Part shown: positions 6,213 to 51,311 of the stretch, piece after piece | Layout of the letters: the number at the start of each line of letters is the position of its first letter | Position numbering within the stretch: position 1 is the stretch's first letter | NCBI RefSeq assembly: GCF_024721605.1 | Contig: NZ_CP102630.1 | Coordinates: 868,001-932,000 of the forward strand | Length of the DNA stretch: 64,000 nt | Direction: 5' to 3' | From: Sphingomicrobium flavum | GTDB lineage: Bacteria > Pseudomonadota > Alphaproteobacteria > Sphingomonadales > Sphingomonadaceae | The notes under the pieces: generated by a model | The model's input: only the letters and a program-made list of their open reading frames with translations | The model's database searches: none | What the model was told of the DNA's origin: nothing | Program-made: the position numbers and the translations under genes

Positions 6213-6312
6213 TGCCCTCTCGGAAGTCGGCGGACGGCTTGCCCGTGAACCTGGTCAGGCCCGGAAGGGAGCAGCCACAGCGGTTTCGGTCGGGTCGTCG
6301 GCTTCCACCTTT
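6213..6312 (+). ncRNA. ffs: Signal recognition particle RNA, small bacterial (4.5S) type
   Basis: The conserved tip of SRP RNA is present at 6245-6276: GTGAACC, then GGTCAGG, then CCGGAAGGGAGCAGCC, giving the symmetric and asymmetric internal loops and the GGAA tetraloop that bind Ffh. The arms close with GGAAGTCG (6222-6229) against CGGCTTCC (6299-6306). The size is about 100 nt with no Alu domain, as in most proteobacteria. Ends are estimated from the stem. It lies 3' of the beta-lactamase and 5' of dnaX. Confidence 0.93.
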
Positions 6313-12339: not shown

Positions 12340-12406
12340 GCTTTGCAAGTCGCTGTGCCTAACTTCGGGCCGTGCCAAGGCTTGACGAGTGGTTTTTAAG
12401 AGTGTC

Positions 12407-12433
12407 TTTTCCCCTGCTTCAGGCAGGGGAAAA
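12407..12433 (+). promoter_or_regulatory. Hairpin overlapping the amidohydrolase ribosome binding site
   Basis: An 11-bp perfect inverted repeat (TTTTCCCCTGC against GCAGGGGAAAA) with a 5-base loop. Its 3' arm contains the AGGGGA that serves as the ribosome binding site for ATG 12437. It could close translation initiation, and with its U-rich 5' side may also act on the minus strand as a terminator. No T-run follows on the plus strand. Confidence 0.55.
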
Positions 12434-12436
12434 AAG

Positions 12437-13393
12437 ATGCGTATGGTCCTCGCGCTAGCTACATTGCTGACCGCAAGCCTCGGACACGCTCAAGAGGCAC
12501 CGCGTAATTTGCCGGAACGCGTCATCGACGTGCACCTTCATTTCTATCCAGAAGACATGAAGGTCCCACCCGTGCCGTACCGTGGTGCTGATCCGGCTGG
12601 CAGGACGGCGCCGATGCCAAAGACAGGCGCGGAACTGCGGGAATTGACGATAGCGGCAATGCAACGCAACAATATCGTCATCGGCATGATATCGATGGCA
12701 ACTGGCAACCCAGGACAGTTCGAAATCGCCAGGAATTGGCAAGTCGAAGGTGGGCCGAAAATCTTGGTCGGTGGCAGCTCCCGAACGGTAATGGGCGAGC
12801 AAACGCCCGAGCAGGTAGCCTCGTTGTACGATGCAGGCGATATGTTCTACCTCGGTGAGTTGGGGTTGCAATATCTCGGCCATACCCTCGACGAAGCGAA
12901 ATTCGAGCCTTACCTTGCGATTGCCGAAGCCAAAGGCATACCGGTCGCGATCCACACGGGACTGGGGTCACCGGAAATGGCAAGGGGGCCCGCACCTGAC
13001 TTCCGCATTGATATGGGCAATCCACTGCGCCTTGAAGAAGTGCTCATCCGTCACCCCAAGTTGAAGATATGGGCTATGCATGCAGGATTTCCGTGGGACG
13101 CTGAGATGTTTGCCATCATGCAACAATTCACCAATGTCTATGTAGATTTGGGCGTTCATACCTGGCTGATGCCGCAGGACGTATTTGACGCTCGCTTAAA
13201 GTGGCTGATGGACATGGGAATGGGTAAGCGCATTATGTTCGGCACTGACCAAATGTTTTGGCCGCAGGCAATCGACGAGGCGGTGGCGAAAGTGGAAAAC
13301 AGCGCCGTTCTGACCCGAGAACAGAAAGACGACATCTTCTACAATAACGCCGTGCGTTTTTTCGGTTTCGATGACAGCCCGGATAGTGACTGA
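12437..13393 (+). CDS. Exported amidohydrolase-2 family protein
   Basis: A 318-residue TIM-barrel metal-dependent hydrolase or decarboxylase (amidohydrolase 2 superfamily). The signal peptide is MRMVLALATLLTASLGHAQ, so it is probably periplasmic. Metal-ligand motifs DVHLHF, IHTG, MHAGFPW and GTDQMFW are in order. ATG 12437 is chosen over 12389, because it gives the clean signal peptide and follows AGGGGA. Base use is AT-richer than its neighbours (about 47-50% GC in two 60-base lines I counted), suggesting acquisition. The substrate is unknown; characterised relatives include aromatic-acid decarboxylases and lactonases. Confidence 0.75.
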   Translation: MRMVLALATLLTASLGHAQEAPRNLPERVIDVHLHFYPEDMKVPPVPYRGADPAGRTAPMPKTGAELRELTIAAMQRNNIVIGMISMATGNPGQFEIARNWQVEGGPKILVGGSSRTVMGEQTPEQVASLYDAGDMFYLGELGLQYLGHTLDEAKFEPYLAIAEAKGIPVAIHTGLGSPEMARGPAPDFRIDMGNPLRLEEVLIRHPKLKIWAMHAGFPWDAEMFAIMQQFTNVYVDLGVHTWLMPQDVFDARLKWLMDMGMGKRIMFGTDQMFWPQAIDEAVAKVENSAVLTREQKDDIFYNNAVRFFGFDDSPDSD

Positions 13394-13435
13394 GGTAGCT
13401 GAATTTCGATACCGCGCCGTACCGGCGCACGGTCA

Positions 13436-13789
13436 TTAGCTCCTCGAAGAATCTCCATCATCGGTAATTGCCTTAACTTCGATCTCCACACCCTTGTCCG
13501 CTTCTTGCTTGGCTGCCCGCGCCTTCTCCGCCGCCCGCTCGGCAATTTCGCCGGCGCGTTCGGCGGCTTCCAGGATACGCTGCTTGACGCGTTCGGCAAT
13601 GGCAGGGGCTTCTTCCCTCAGGCGTGCCGCTTCATCGCGGGCGCGGCGGATGGCTTCATTGGCTTCTTCCAGAGCGATGGTGCGCGCTTCGCTGGCCGCC
13701 GCCAATGCTTCATCACGCGCGGTGCGAGCGGCATCCTTGGCGCGCTCATAATGCTCTTTGGCCAGCTGCAATTTCTCTTCTCTCGACAT
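13436..13789 (-). CDS. Hypothetical Ala/Glu/Arg-rich coiled-coil protein
   Basis: A 117-residue soluble protein that is nearly one continuous charged helix (for instance EEANEAIRRARDEAARLREE), then a short acidic tail ending DDGDSSRS. No signal peptide or known domain. Composition resembles apolipoprotein-like or stress-related helical repeat proteins, but I do not assign a function. ATG 13789 begins MSREEKLQLAK. An AT-rich palindrome lies 29-46 bases upstream and may be its promoter or operator. Confidence 0.6.
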   Translation of the reverse strand: MSREEKLQLAKEHYERAKDAARTARDEALAAASEARTIALEEANEAIRRARDEAARLREEAPAIAERVKQRILEAAERAGEIAERAAEKARAAKQEADKGVEIEVKAITDDGDSSRS

Positions 13790-13817
13790 CGCTATATTCC
13801 CAAAACAGAGTCTTACC

Positions 13818-13835
13818 GTATTACATATATAATAC
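13818..13835. promoter_or_regulatory. AT-rich palindrome upstream of the coiled-coil gene
   Basis: GTATTA-N6-TAATAC, a perfect 6-bp inverted repeat in an otherwise GC-rich region. It lies where the promoter of the minus-strand gene starting at 13789 should be and reads TATTATAT on that strand, so it may be a -10 region, an operator, or both. Confidence 0.4.
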
Positions 13836-13879
13836 AGATAGTCGATGTGATCAAGATGGTCGGAGAGTTTCAACAGACC

Positions 13880-13965
13880 CCGCTCAGGCTGAGCCTGTCG
13901 AAGCCTCACCGCATGCACCGCCGTCTGCGTGGCGCTGACCCTTCGACTTCGCTCAGGGTGAGCGG
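13880..13965. repeat. Inverted pair of sphingomonad REP-like elements
   Basis: One element at 13880-13905 (with GCTCAGGCTGAGC, then CTGTCGAAG) faces a second at 13938-13965 (CCTTCGACTTCGCTCAGGG then TGAGCGG). Both ends carry TCGAAG or its complement CTTCGA and GCTCA, so the 86-base unit can fold back on itself. This is the arrangement of REP pairs mobilised by RAYT transposases; no transposase gene is nearby. Confidence 0.55.
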
Positions 13966-14703
13966 GAGAGGGTAGTGGGGCCTGTCATGGAAAAACCCGG
14001 CAATTGACGATTGTTGGATACAAGTAGGATTTCATCTGCTTCAGCACTGGTCAGCTCTTTGACCCGGCCGGTGATACCCTACAGCGCGATGCCCGCTTTT
14101 TCTGCATCCGGACGGCTGAAGTTGACGAAGTTGACGACCCCCCATTTTCGCTGGATCGCGCGCTTATCGGAAAGAAAATGCAGGTGCCGGGCCAAGGCGA
14201 TAGCACGTGTGCCTTCAAAGCGCCCGGCACCTGCCGATCCGTTTGGACGGGTCGGGGAATTGCGCCGAGCAAATCGCCTTCCCGATCTGGACAACCCGCA
14301 AGCGCGCAATCGGTTCAATGCCAAAGTGGCGGGCGCCGGACGTAGCACGTGTGATTACACCGCCCGACACCCGCCCACTCGCCCAAAGGAGACGAGTGTT
14401 GGCCTGGCAAGGTCGGCTGATGCCGCCTTGCAACCCGATCCAACCGTTTGAAAGAGCCCCCAGATGCCAACAGGTGCCGGGGCCGAACGTCCGTACGCAC
14501 TGAACCCCGTCACCTGCCGCCCCGTTGTGAAACGGAGCCGAGGCCGGCAATGCCCCGGGCCATTCTTGGCGAATCCCCGTGCAGAGCCGCGTGTTACGAA
14601 AGGGAGAGAGCCTGATTTGCGGCCATCATTCAATCGCCCATTCAATGGGATGATAACCGTTATCGGCGAGCCGAGTCCTGACAGCGGCGAAACGAGAAGG
14701 TGT
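13966..14703. other. Gene-free 0.7-kb region
   Basis: I see no protein with recognisable domains on either strand; the longest open frames (about 90-146 codons) are low-complexity Arg/Pro/Ala translations typical of noncoding GC-rich DNA. A minus-strand stretch at about 14000-14150 reads somewhat protein-like but has an in-frame stop near 14088. The main content is the tandem hairpin series at 14181-14535. Confidence 0.5.
14181..14535. ncRNA. Three tandem two-hairpin modules, candidate structured RNA
   Basis: Three units start at about 14181, 14326 and 14471 (spacing about 145). Unit 1: CAGGTGCCGGGC (14181-14192) pairs perfectly with 14222-14233, followed by hairpin GATCCGT/ACGGGTC (14236-14253). 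Unit 2: GTGGCGGGCG (14326-14335) pairs with 14361-14370 with one mismatch, followed by CACTCG/CGAGTG (14376-14398). Unit 3: CAGGTGCCGGGG (14471-14482) pairs with 14505-14516 with one mismatch, followed by CCGTT/AACGG (14522-14535). Loops of units 1 and 2 share TAGCACGTGTG. The stem sequences differ while pairing is kept, as expected for conserved structure. Strand, promoter and terminator are not evident. Confidence 0.45.
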
Positions 14704-15297
14704 TCAGGGCGCTAACCAGCTTGCTTCAACCGCGCCGTCCGCAGCGAAGCGAAAGCCCGCGCGGCGATGCCCCTCATGGCTGAGCGAAAACCAGTCGAGC
14801 GAGGTGAGGGTGACCAGCAAGACTGCAAAATTCGCGCGGCCTTGTGCGGCGCGGTCATCATCGGGGGCAACTCCCTCAAGATCGGCCGGCAGATTGCTGG
14901 TCGGCGCACCGGCAGCGCTGCTCGGCGGCTGGGGGGCGAGATAGCAGCGTTTGGCAAAATTGGTCGCCGCCGCCCAGGCCGTATCGGTCACCGGACCATC
15001 CCGCTCGATCCGCGCGACACCCTTGCAGCGCAATTGCAGCTTGCCATCATGATCGTAGAGCAGGAGCCCGACCGCAGGCTCCGCCGCAATCACACTGACC
15101 TTGGGCGCGCGTGCATCGGTGTGAAAGCGCAGCGTGCGCGTTTCGGCATCATAATCGCGCAGCACCATGATCCGTTGATCCGCATCGGCCGTCGCCACCA
15201 CGACCTGGTGCATGGGATGACGCCAATCATTGCCCGCCGCCGCCAGCTGGGCCTCGGCATGGGCCAATACTTCCTTGAGCGTCTGCGGTGTCTCCAT
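14704..15297 (-). CDS. Pyridoxamine 5'-phosphate oxidase-like flavin-binding protein
   Basis: A 197-residue split-barrel protein of the PNPOx-like FMN-binding family. Features are HPMHQVVVATADADQR and RIMVLRDYDAETRTLRFHTD near the N-terminus, then the ATNFAKRCYLAPQPPS segment and a C-terminal HRRAGFRF. It may be an FMN-dependent oxidoreductase; the catalytic set of true PdxH (vitamin B6 synthesis) is not clearly complete, so I keep it generic. ATG 15297 (METPQTLKEV) is preferred to the longer reading from 15393, which adds a low-complexity tail across the divergent promoter of the DUF1905 gene. Confidence 0.75.
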   Translation of the reverse strand: METPQTLKEVLAHAEAQLAAAGNDWRHPMHQVVVATADADQRIMVLRDYDAETRTLRFHTDARAPKVSVIAAEPAVGLLLYDHDGKLQLRCKGVARIERDGPVTDTAWAAATNFAKRCYLAPQPPSSAAGAPTSNLPADLEGVAPDDDRAAQGRANFAVLLVTLTSLDWFSLSHEGHRRAGFRFAADGAVEASWLAP

Positions 15298-15342
15298 GCA
15301 ATCGCCATAGCGCCGCAGGGTCGTCGAGGGTAGGGGAGTGGG

Positions 15343-15629
15343 ATGATCCGTTTTACCGCACCCTTGTGGCGCTGGCAGGGTGGCAATTGGCATTTCATCA
15401 CCCTGCCGCAGGACGCCGCCGCCGAAATCCGCTTCGAGGCGGCCGGCCTTCGCGGCGGCTTCGGCTCGATCCGGGTCGAGGTGGAGATTGGCAGAGCAGC
15501 TGGAAGACCTCGCTATTCCCCGACAAGAAAAGCGAGAGCTTTCTCCTGCCCGTCAAGAAAGCGATCCGCATCGCCGAGGGGCTGGAAATCGATAATGAGG
15601 TGGAGGTGACGCTGCAGCCGCTCGGCTAG
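15343..15629 (+). pseudogene. DUF1905-domain protein, frameshifted
   Basis: From ATG 15343, after AGGGGAG, the reading gives a DUF1905 N-terminus (WHFITLPQDAAAEIR) up to VEVEIG near 15492. The rest of the domain (SSWKTSLFPDKKSESF, then LLPVKKAIRIAEGL) continues in another frame to the stop at 15627-15629. A duplicated AG in GGCAGAGCAGC near 15493-15497 (two extra bases) explains the shift; removing it restores a protein of about 95 residues. It is either a recent inactivation or an assembly error. Confidence 0.8.
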
Positions 15630-16135
15630 CGGTCCGAAACCCGTTCCCGGGCCTCGGAAATGCGCGCGGTGATGGCACCATAATCTTCCGCGCTCAGCAG
15701 TCCTTCCTCCCGAAGCGCAGACAGCTGCGCCTCGGCCTGCGCCAGCCGCGCTGTGGCATCGGCAGCGTCGTTGCTGCTGGTGTCGGTGATGTCCGGAAGG
15801 GGTTCACCCTTGGCCTTGGCGACGGTGCGGCGAATAGCCAGGTTGATAGCATCGCGCCGGCTCATCTCGCCGCGCTCGACCGCACCTTCCAGCGCGCCCA
15901 TTTGCTCGACATAGACCGGATTGCTGTCATTGACCGCATCATCGATCTCGTCGCTCAGTCGATCGAGCTCCGCCAGTCGCTTATCCATCTGCCCTAGCGA
16001 GCGGTCGAGCTGCGCATCGATCTGCGTCGCACTTCGGTCCGAACCGTCCCACCAGCTTTCGATATCGTCGCTCTTGACCAGGATGCCACCGATCGCTGCC
16101 AACCCCGTCAATCCGACCCAGAAAATTCCGCGCAT
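15626..16135 (-). CDS. Membrane-anchored hypothetical protein A, paralogue of its neighbour
   Basis: A 169-residue protein. The N-terminus MRGIFWVGLTGLAAIGGILV is a single hydrophobic anchor or uncleaved signal, followed by an acidic, helical domain with coiled-coil tendency (LAELDRLSDEIDD) and a C-terminal LAQAEAQLSALREEG. ATG 16135 follows AAGGGTG; a TTG at 16183 would add a tail that breaks the anchor. It shares anchor sequence and overall plan with the gene just upstream (16194-16751) and is cotranscribed with it. No known domain recognised. Confidence 0.7.
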   Translation of the reverse strand: MRGIFWVGLTGLAAIGGILVKSDDIESWWDGSDRSATQIDAQLDRSLGQMDKRLAELDRLSDEIDDAVNDSNPVYVEQMGALEGAVERGEMSRRDAINLAIRRTVAKAKGEPLPDITDTSSNDAADATARLAQAEAQLSALREEGLLSAEDYGAITARISEARERVSDR

Positions 16136-16193
16136 TGCATCACCCTTTCGCCCGCACTGTATCACAATGGCAATACAGCGCAAGGTCTGGCGG

Positions 16194-16751
16194 TCATTCC
16201 TCGAAGGCGTCGCTGATCTGCTGGTTGATCTCCTCGGCGGTTTCCTTCAGCGCGGCCGCGCGTTCCTCGCCGCTCAGCACCTTGCCGTCGCGCACCACGT
16301 CGGCATCCGATTGCTCGATCCCGTCGAACACCCGGTCGACCGTGCGCGAAATCCGCTCCTCGACCACGCTGCGCGGTTGATCGTCTGCAGGCTCGGCAAC
16401 CGGCTCCTCGGTCAGCTTGGCGAGCGCGATGGCACGGTCCGCCTCCGCTTTCGATAGCGCTTCGCTGCGTTCGGCATCGGAGAGGCTGGTATCTGCCCGG
16501 ATCTCGGCGATGCGCTCCTGCGCGGCGGAGAGCGCTTCGATGGCTTCGTCCAGCCCTTCGGCCGCATTTGCTTCCGCGCTGTCGGCCTCGTCGCTGCGCA
16601 CGGCGATATCGCCGCCATCGGTAACGTCGACGATAACCCGGTCGCTCTCGGCAACTTCGGAAAGGACCGATCCGATCTCGCTGCCATTCTTGATCGCCAC
16701 CCCGCCAATGGCGGCCAGGCCGCAAGCCGCAATCCAGAAAAACCCCTTCAT
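16194..16751 (-). CDS. Membrane-anchored hypothetical protein B, paralogue of its neighbour
   Basis: A 185-residue protein opening with MKGFFWIAACGLAAIGGVAI, which aligns residue by residue with the anchor of protein A (M-x-G-x-F-W then GLAAIGG). The remainder is acidic and helical: an AQERIAEIRAD heptad-like stretch and a charged C-terminus with two ordered segments (RSVVEERISRTVDRVFDG and ETAEEINQQISDAFEE). No catalytic motif or known domain. The pair is separated by 58 bases on the same strand and looks like a tandem duplication that diverged. Confidence 0.7.
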   Translation of the reverse strand: MKGFFWIAACGLAAIGGVAIKNGSEIGSVLSEVAESDRVIVDVTDGGDIAVRSDEADSAEANAAEGLDEAIEALSAAQERIAEIRADTSLSDAERSEALSKAEADRAIALAKLTEEPVAEPADDQPRSVVEERISRTVDRVFDGIEQSDADVVRDGKVLSGEERAAALKETAEEINQQISDAFEE

Positions 16752-40231: not shown

Positions 40232-40321
40232 GGAGAGATGGCTGAGTGGTTTAAAGCACTGGTCTTGAAAACCAGCGTGGGTTCACGCCCACCGTGGGTT
40301 CGAATCCCACTCTCTCCGCCA
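40232..40321 (+). tRNA. tRNA-Ser (anticodon TGA)
   Basis: A 90-nt class II tRNA with encoded CCA. Acceptor arms GGAGAGA (40232-40238) and TCTCTCC (40311-40317), D-arm GGCTGAGTGG, anticodon stem CTGGT/ACCAG around loop CTTGAAA (anticodon TGA), a long variable arm GTGGGTTCACGCCCAC and T-arm GTTCGAATC. Reads UCA. A short T-run (CTTTTT) follows the CCA. Confidence 0.96.
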
Positions 40322-51088: not shown

Positions 51089-51117
51089 TTGACAAGCAAA
51101 AGCTCCCGGACCATCGG
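51089..51117 (+). promoter_or_regulatory. Candidate promoter of the cobalamin operon
   Basis: A consensus-like TTGACA (51089-51094) is followed about 17 bases later by a weak -10 (CATCGG, about 51112-51117), directly before the riboswitch. The -35 is good, the -10 is not. Confidence 0.4.
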
Positions 51118-51118
51118 C

Positions 51119-51243
51119 GCCTGTAGGACAAAGGTTTCGCCCCTGTAATCGGGGCGACGAAGAGGGAAGCCGGTGGCAATCCGGCGCTGTGCCCGCAACT
51201 GTGATCCCGGCAAAGCCCGGGAAAGCCAGATACCGACCCTTGA
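51119..51243 (+). promoter_or_regulatory. Cobalamin riboswitch
   Basis: The class signature is present: GGGAAGCCGGTG (about 51161-51172), GGCGCTGTGCCCGCAACTGT (51183-51202) and the B12 box AGCCAGATACCG (51224-51235), with flanking P-stems such as TCCCGG/CCGGGA. It senses adenosylcobalamin-type cobamides and would repress the TonB receptor and ABC importer downstream when B12 is plentiful. Confidence 0.95.
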
Positions 51244-51311
51244 TCCGTCGTCCGCCTTGCTGCCGGGGTCAGCGCCAGGGCGTGGATCGTGGTGGGCATT
51301 AGCCGCGCACC

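Follow-up and report, generated by a model that had tools for sequence, protein, structure and literature searches.

An array of three tandem two-hairpin modules lies beside a PNPOx-like gene, within a 64-kb window (the whole stretch of DNA analyzed here) of a 2.34-Mb single-contig genome, G000. The locus is probably an RNA, with a function that is predicted: our preferred reading, to which we give about an even chance, is a tandem structured RNA of the minus strand, made either as a transcript of its own or as part of the PNPOx-like gene's 3′ UTR. The original prediction of an undescribed structured RNA thereby survives as the best reading – there is no Rfam or Pfam match, the spacing is not triplet and a relative in the congener G018 occupies the same place – but it missed the strand, the long stems contain little covariation, the element was found in only two other congeners and the G018 region folds weakly (z −1.40). 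The features of the locus, all on the minus strand and listed in the order in which that strand is read, are as follows.

14704–15393, minus strand: PNPOx-like gene, upstream of the array and a possible source of read-through (Pfam)
14651–14669, minus strand: block similar (4 mismatches of 19) to one found after PNPOx in three congeners (L038, L039, L042); possible promoter region
14519–14538, minus strand: unit 3 short hairpin (covariance model alignment, folding)
14470–14517, minus strand: unit 3 long hairpin, its loop lacking the shared string (inverted repeat, folding, covariance model alignment)
14376–14398, minus strand: unit 2 short hairpin (folding, covariance model alignment)
14328–14375, minus strand: unit 2 long hairpin, CACACGTGCTA in the loop (inverted repeat, folding, covariance model alignment)
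14236–14253, minus strand: unit 1 short hairpin (folding, covariance model alignment)
14180–14234, minus strand: unit 1 long hairpin, 13/13 Watson-Crick pairs, GCACACGTGCTA in the loop (inverted repeat, covariance model alignment, window-wide hairpin count)
14169–14179, minus strand: T-rich tail ATTTTCTTTCC after unit 1, candidate 3′ end (by eye)
13436–13789, minus strand: small coiled-coil-like gene, downstream of the array, with no Pfam family (Pfam scan)

The three hairpins are real. As had been proposed, there are three tandem units some 145 bases apart (142 for one neighboring pair and 290 for units 1 to 3, that is, about 142–148), each an inverted repeat with a long stem and a loop, which in unit 1 amounts to 13/13 pairs around 29 bases. 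A short hairpin adjoins each of the long ones, again as claimed; the order given originally is reversed, because the favored strand is the minus strand, on which each short hairpin precedes its long one, three times over, with the T-rich tail after the last. The loop sequence said to be shared by units 1 and 2 is likewise there (TAGCACGTGTG in both) and is missing from unit 3, while a loop core, CACACGTGC, is kept in units 1 and 2 and in G018. The core CACGTG is itself a palindrome. Palindromic loops were set aside as a common feature of the array: unit 3 has CGTACG in place of the CACGTG of units 1 and 2, and we estimate the chance of such a palindrome at about 1/4 per 22-base loop.

Unit 1 stands out from the rest of the window. 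No other perfect Watson-Crick hairpin in the 64 kb has 13 pairs (loop of 3–35), and 40 shuffles averaged 0.05 such hairpins, with a maximum of 1. When G-U pairs and one mismatch are allowed, stems of at least 13 pairs are common in the GC-rich window (37 on the plus strand, 64 on the minus strand), and units 2 and 3 are therefore unremarkable on their own.

Folding strength points to the minus strand, which is probably the favored one and is opposite to the strand first described. Over a 386-base region the minus strand gives a z of −5.87, equaled by none of 100 shuffles, and the plus strand a z of −2.56, equaled by one of 100. For units 1, 2 and 3 in turn the values are −5.1, −5.5 and −2.5 on the minus strand and −5.6, −1.8 and −1.3 on the plus strand: unit 1 folds about equally well on both, units 2 and 3 better on the minus. 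In 160-base tiles the array scores −3.8 to −4.2 on the minus strand, where the first percentile of the window is −4.0; four of 320 background tiles fall below −4.0, the lowest at −5.2, which places the array near the first percentile without making it unique. The departures from Watson-Crick pairing lean the same way. Read on the minus strand, the five long stems (units 1–3, G018 and the congener G043) contain five G-U pairs, no A-C and one other mismatch, and the four short stems depart from pairing by three G-U and one A-C; the arms of the short stems were chosen by their minus-strand pairing, so that only the long-stem G-U count, a small one, is free of choice.

It had been argued that the stems differ between units yet keep their pairing. 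This holds for the short hairpins, whose predicted pairing is retained across differing sequences, but not for the long stems, which follow a near-constant sequence, GCRGGUGNCGGG. Among their 13 pairs eight are invariant, four vary on one side and one on both, so that covariation there appears slight and the long stems look like sequence copies. In an alignment that was padded by hand to the predicted structure, and on which all covariation counts rest, 97.6% of cells are paired, and both sides have changed in 8 of the 22 pairs, compared with 3.8 in shuffles; seven of these eight changes fall in the short helix and one in the long helix.

As far as searched, the element appears limited to a small lineage. 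A covariance model built from the three units and G018, of the kind originally suggested for a search of relatives, returned only G000 and G018 from whole genomes (71 congeners; 397 genomes of the family), and a local search of ten loci added a copy in G043 at 30.6 bits, together with weaker matches at L039, L038 and L040 (E 0.16 to 3.4); no further carriers appeared among the 71 congeners. The whole-genome searches missed the G043 copy, and absence from other genomes is therefore not proven. A search of 297 relatives with the stem pattern gave the same three genomes and no others, with one place per genome. Three of 71 congeners thus have a detected element: G000 with three copies, G018 with one, and G043 with one whose loop is shortened.

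In G018 the single module lies on the same strand as in G000 and, as there, between the PNPOx-like and coiled-coil-like genes, the latter following the hairpin directly. Plain blastn also ties G018 to the G000 locus (E 0.002–0.003). From the ettA stop to the PNPOx stop (12340–14703) only the coiled-coil-like gene and the hairpin match G018; in the remainder of the 20-kb comparison, some intergenic gaps are bridged by long alignments that span genes, and the SRP RNA matches. The 221-base G018 region folds only slightly better than chance, 17 of 200 shuffles equaling it. In G043 the stem is perfect and the loop is short, having lost the loop core; the copy lies in the same gene cluster but on the opposite side of PNPOx, ahead of a reading frame that by eye resembles the small membrane-type protein at 16194–16751. 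The long stem sequence is shared by three species, their PNPOx proteins being 50–61% identical to that of G000.

Other matches were discarded. A search of 396 genomes from the order matched four; two of these, G166 and G311, were set aside because their matches fall within long reading frames, presumably those of a ribosomal protein S9-like and a glycosidase-like protein. Thirteen of 15 blastn rows (the others being G018 and the locus itself) contained no hairpin by eye, and nine of them look like one coding sequence. Weak model matches in G058, G055 and G006 seem by eye to be ordinary terminators, and one in G017 overlaps reading frames. Within G000 only the locus itself matches at length. 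Plasmid and phage collections, searched at distant sensitivity, contained no match to the array, and a pattern search of IMG/VR gave 0 matches.

The claim that no recognized family accounts for the region stands: an Rfam scan of the window gave no family at the gathering threshold for the array, and a relaxed scan of 13950–14720 reached no more than 12.5 bits, where the threshold is 40. Elsewhere in the window are a cobalamin riboswitch (51115–51255), a bacterial small SRP RNA (6219–6312) and a tRNA-Ser (TGA) (40232–40321). Nor does a protein gene explain the array, as had been stated; a protein-coding repeat was rejected on the spacing of 142, which is not a multiple of three, and on the two reading frames crossing part of the array, which have no Pfam match.

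At the downstream end, G018 has by eye TTTCCTTCCCC where unit 1 has its T-rich tail, and no T-tract follows units 2 and 3, where pairing is kept. A consensus scan of 13700–14800 for terminators (with loops of 3–8) and promoters found none. The block at 14651–14669 has a weaker likeness about 60 bases before the G043 hairpin; a search at 3 mismatches gave no match, and by our estimate the DNA scanned should contain about one such match by chance, so that its possible promoter role is a hint only.

Several observations concern the surroundings. The ettA–PNPOx gap (12340–14703; counterparts L035–L043) is a variable spot in which several congeners have other genes, among them, at L038, L039, L041 and L042, one for a Thr/Asp- or Gly-rich secreted-type protein. 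On the minus strand, 13990–14181 reads as a protein-like remnant with an in-frame stop and no Pfam match. Beyond the unit 1 tail, the coiled-coil-like gene has by eye a palindrome of its own, TGTATTAnnnnnnTAATACG. Palindromes of the form TGTATT-N8-ATACA precede this gene (13816–13837), with similar ones in G018, G043 and G051, and another at about 16150–16185 precedes the gene at 15626–16183 (all by eye); they may be a single operator that serves a small regulon. Paired inverted repeats around CTTCGACTTCGCTCAGGGTGAGC and GCCTGTCGAAG occupy 13876–13966, and we take them to resemble a dispersed sphingomonad repeat.

The loop sequence suggests a candidate target. In both G000 and G018, a small-peptide gene has a leader complementary to CACACGUGC, the string found in the unit 1 and unit 2 loops:

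L082, G000 C1, about 563278–563359, minus strand: peptide gene with the core FWDW[LV][LF]GG, found by pattern (other loci L083, L099–L112)

The peptide of G000 has 27 residues (MKTNKKPVRGFWDWVLGGGWSGTGGAG). Complements of the 9-base loop core number four in G000 (two loops, one coding site and one leader) and two in G018 (one loop and one leader), and in both genomes the leader site lies 29–37 bases upstream of the start codon of the orthologous gene. A degenerate pattern for the peptide motif matches 14 of 392 relatives, including 6 of the 71 congeners; 12 of the matches are of 22–28 residues, one is of 15 and one, in G222, lacks any start codon within 60 bases. Only in G000 and G018, two of the 14, does the upstream stretch contain the leader site: G001, G013, G034 and G055 have the peptide gene, no detected hairpin and no leader site, and in G043 neither the pattern nor a 140-kb stretch selected by synteny yielded the gene. 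By eye, a hairpin and a T-run follow the congener peptide genes.

Predicted duplexes rank this leader unevenly. With unit 2 it pairs better than all 178 background leaders; with unit 1 and with the G018 loop at least 6 of the 178 do better, and shuffled leaders equal the real one in 33, 0 and 66 of 2000 cases for unit 1, unit 2 and G018, respectively. Conserved leader sites expected by chance number 0.05 for a 9-mer and 0.011 for a 10-mer, an estimate made from 94 ortholog leader pairs (more than 45% identity, shadow frames perhaps included) with 1,700 orthologs assumed. Because 0.01–0.05 such sites are expected by chance, we treat targeting of the leader by the loop as a lead, and a doubtful one; the presence of the site in both genomes may also reflect shared ancestry.

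From the structure, its strand bias, its relatives and its complementarity we infer a course of transcription, termination, processing and regulation. The three sibling modules, in each of which a variable short hairpin precedes a long one with a near-constant stem, would be transcribed from the PNPOx side, by read-through of the 3′ UTR or from a start near 14650, and the transcript would end at the unit 1 long hairpin and its T-rich tail. The RNA would perhaps be released from the PNPOx 3′ UTR. The CACACGUGC loops of units 1 and 2 would then act as antisense seeds, with the 5′ leader of the 27-residue peptide gene as the best candidate partner. Against this course speak the lack of any promoter- or terminator-like site in the region scanned, the weak G018 fold, the equal folding of unit 1 on the plus strand, the A-C mismatch in the short hairpins, the absence of the loop string from unit 3 and the loss of the loop in G043. 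Its most specific form – a young, lineage-born array whose loop, through its self-complementary CACGUG core, controls by antisense or kissing contacts the short mRNA that encodes a conserved sphingomonad microprotein (FWDW[LV][LF]GG), neither partner being in the family libraries searched – we consider unlikely.

The main rival, quite possible in our judgment and somewhat short of probable, is a cluster of 3′-end hairpins with no function in trans, in which an intrinsic terminator or exonuclease barrier for the upstream transcript underwent local duplication, with a T-tract retained by the last copy alone. The array is indeed downstream of PNPOx, on the same strand, in both G000 and G018, T-rich tails follow unit 1 and the G018 hairpin, and other genes in the genus are followed by long GC stems with T-runs, three of these stems being weakly detected by the model. 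A terminator, however, needs no loops of 20–29 bases with a kept core, units 2 and 3 pair without a T-tract, and the stem sequence is identical in three species despite the divergence of their PNPOx proteins. Conservation of stem sequence, and not of pairing alone, would suit a palindrome acting as DNA, either a protein-binding site or a mobile inverted repeat, with the CACGTG loop core and the leader site as copies of one operator; CACGTG is self-palindromic and occurs again near the start of the peptide gene, and the G043 stem sits elsewhere in the same cluster. We nevertheless hold this to be very unlikely: the stem pattern finds one locus per genome, G000 has no second long copy, none of the nine neighboring frames is a transposase (Pfam) and the minus-strand G-U bias, small as its numbers are, would not be expected. 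REP-type dispersed palindromes, for their part, would be expected in many copies per genome, against one place per genome in 3 of 297 genomes.

If the preferred minus-strand RNA is transcribed, it would be a recently born tandem RNA caught in three states across three related species – one copy, three copies, and one copy with a shortened loop – and with a concrete target candidate. The locus also points to a sphingomonad small-peptide family, of which the three members scanned have no match in Pfam or NCBIfam. In the literature searched, titles and abstract openings name neither the element nor the peptide, which does not imply that they are unpublished.

Among known systems, tandem sibling sRNAs such as AbcR1/AbcR2 and PrrF1/PrrF2 are similar in being neighboring homologous copies, and PrrH is a known case of read-through across a tandem pair (PMC4211561); unlike them, the array has no Rfam match and a T-rich tail after only one unit of three. 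The nearest precedents are alpha-r14 and CcsR1-4. The alpha-r14 or cuckoo RNAs (NfeR1) have three hairpins with one loop motif and highly differing stems (PMC10746234). The array resembles them in its three hairpins and common loop motif, but their motif CCUCCUCCC is absent from it and the balance is reversed: in alpha-r14 the stems are unlike and all three loops agree, whereas in the array the long stems are alike and two of three loops agree. CcsR1-4 of Rhodobacter sphaeroides (ccaF1-CcsR operon, CIN1 locus) are several homologous RNAs that form a cluster in the 3′ UTR of ccaF1, from which they are processed with RNase E; a terminator closes the cluster (PMC10253847, PMC8625941, PMC7866481). 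The putative RNA of the array would be organized like them, as an alphaproteobacterial cluster of homologous modules. Because CCTCC, their loop motif, is absent from the minus strand of 14169–14560, and because Pfam finds no DUF1127 among the nine neighboring frames, the array is not a member of the CcsR or alpha-r14 families, yet by analogy it may work as they do.
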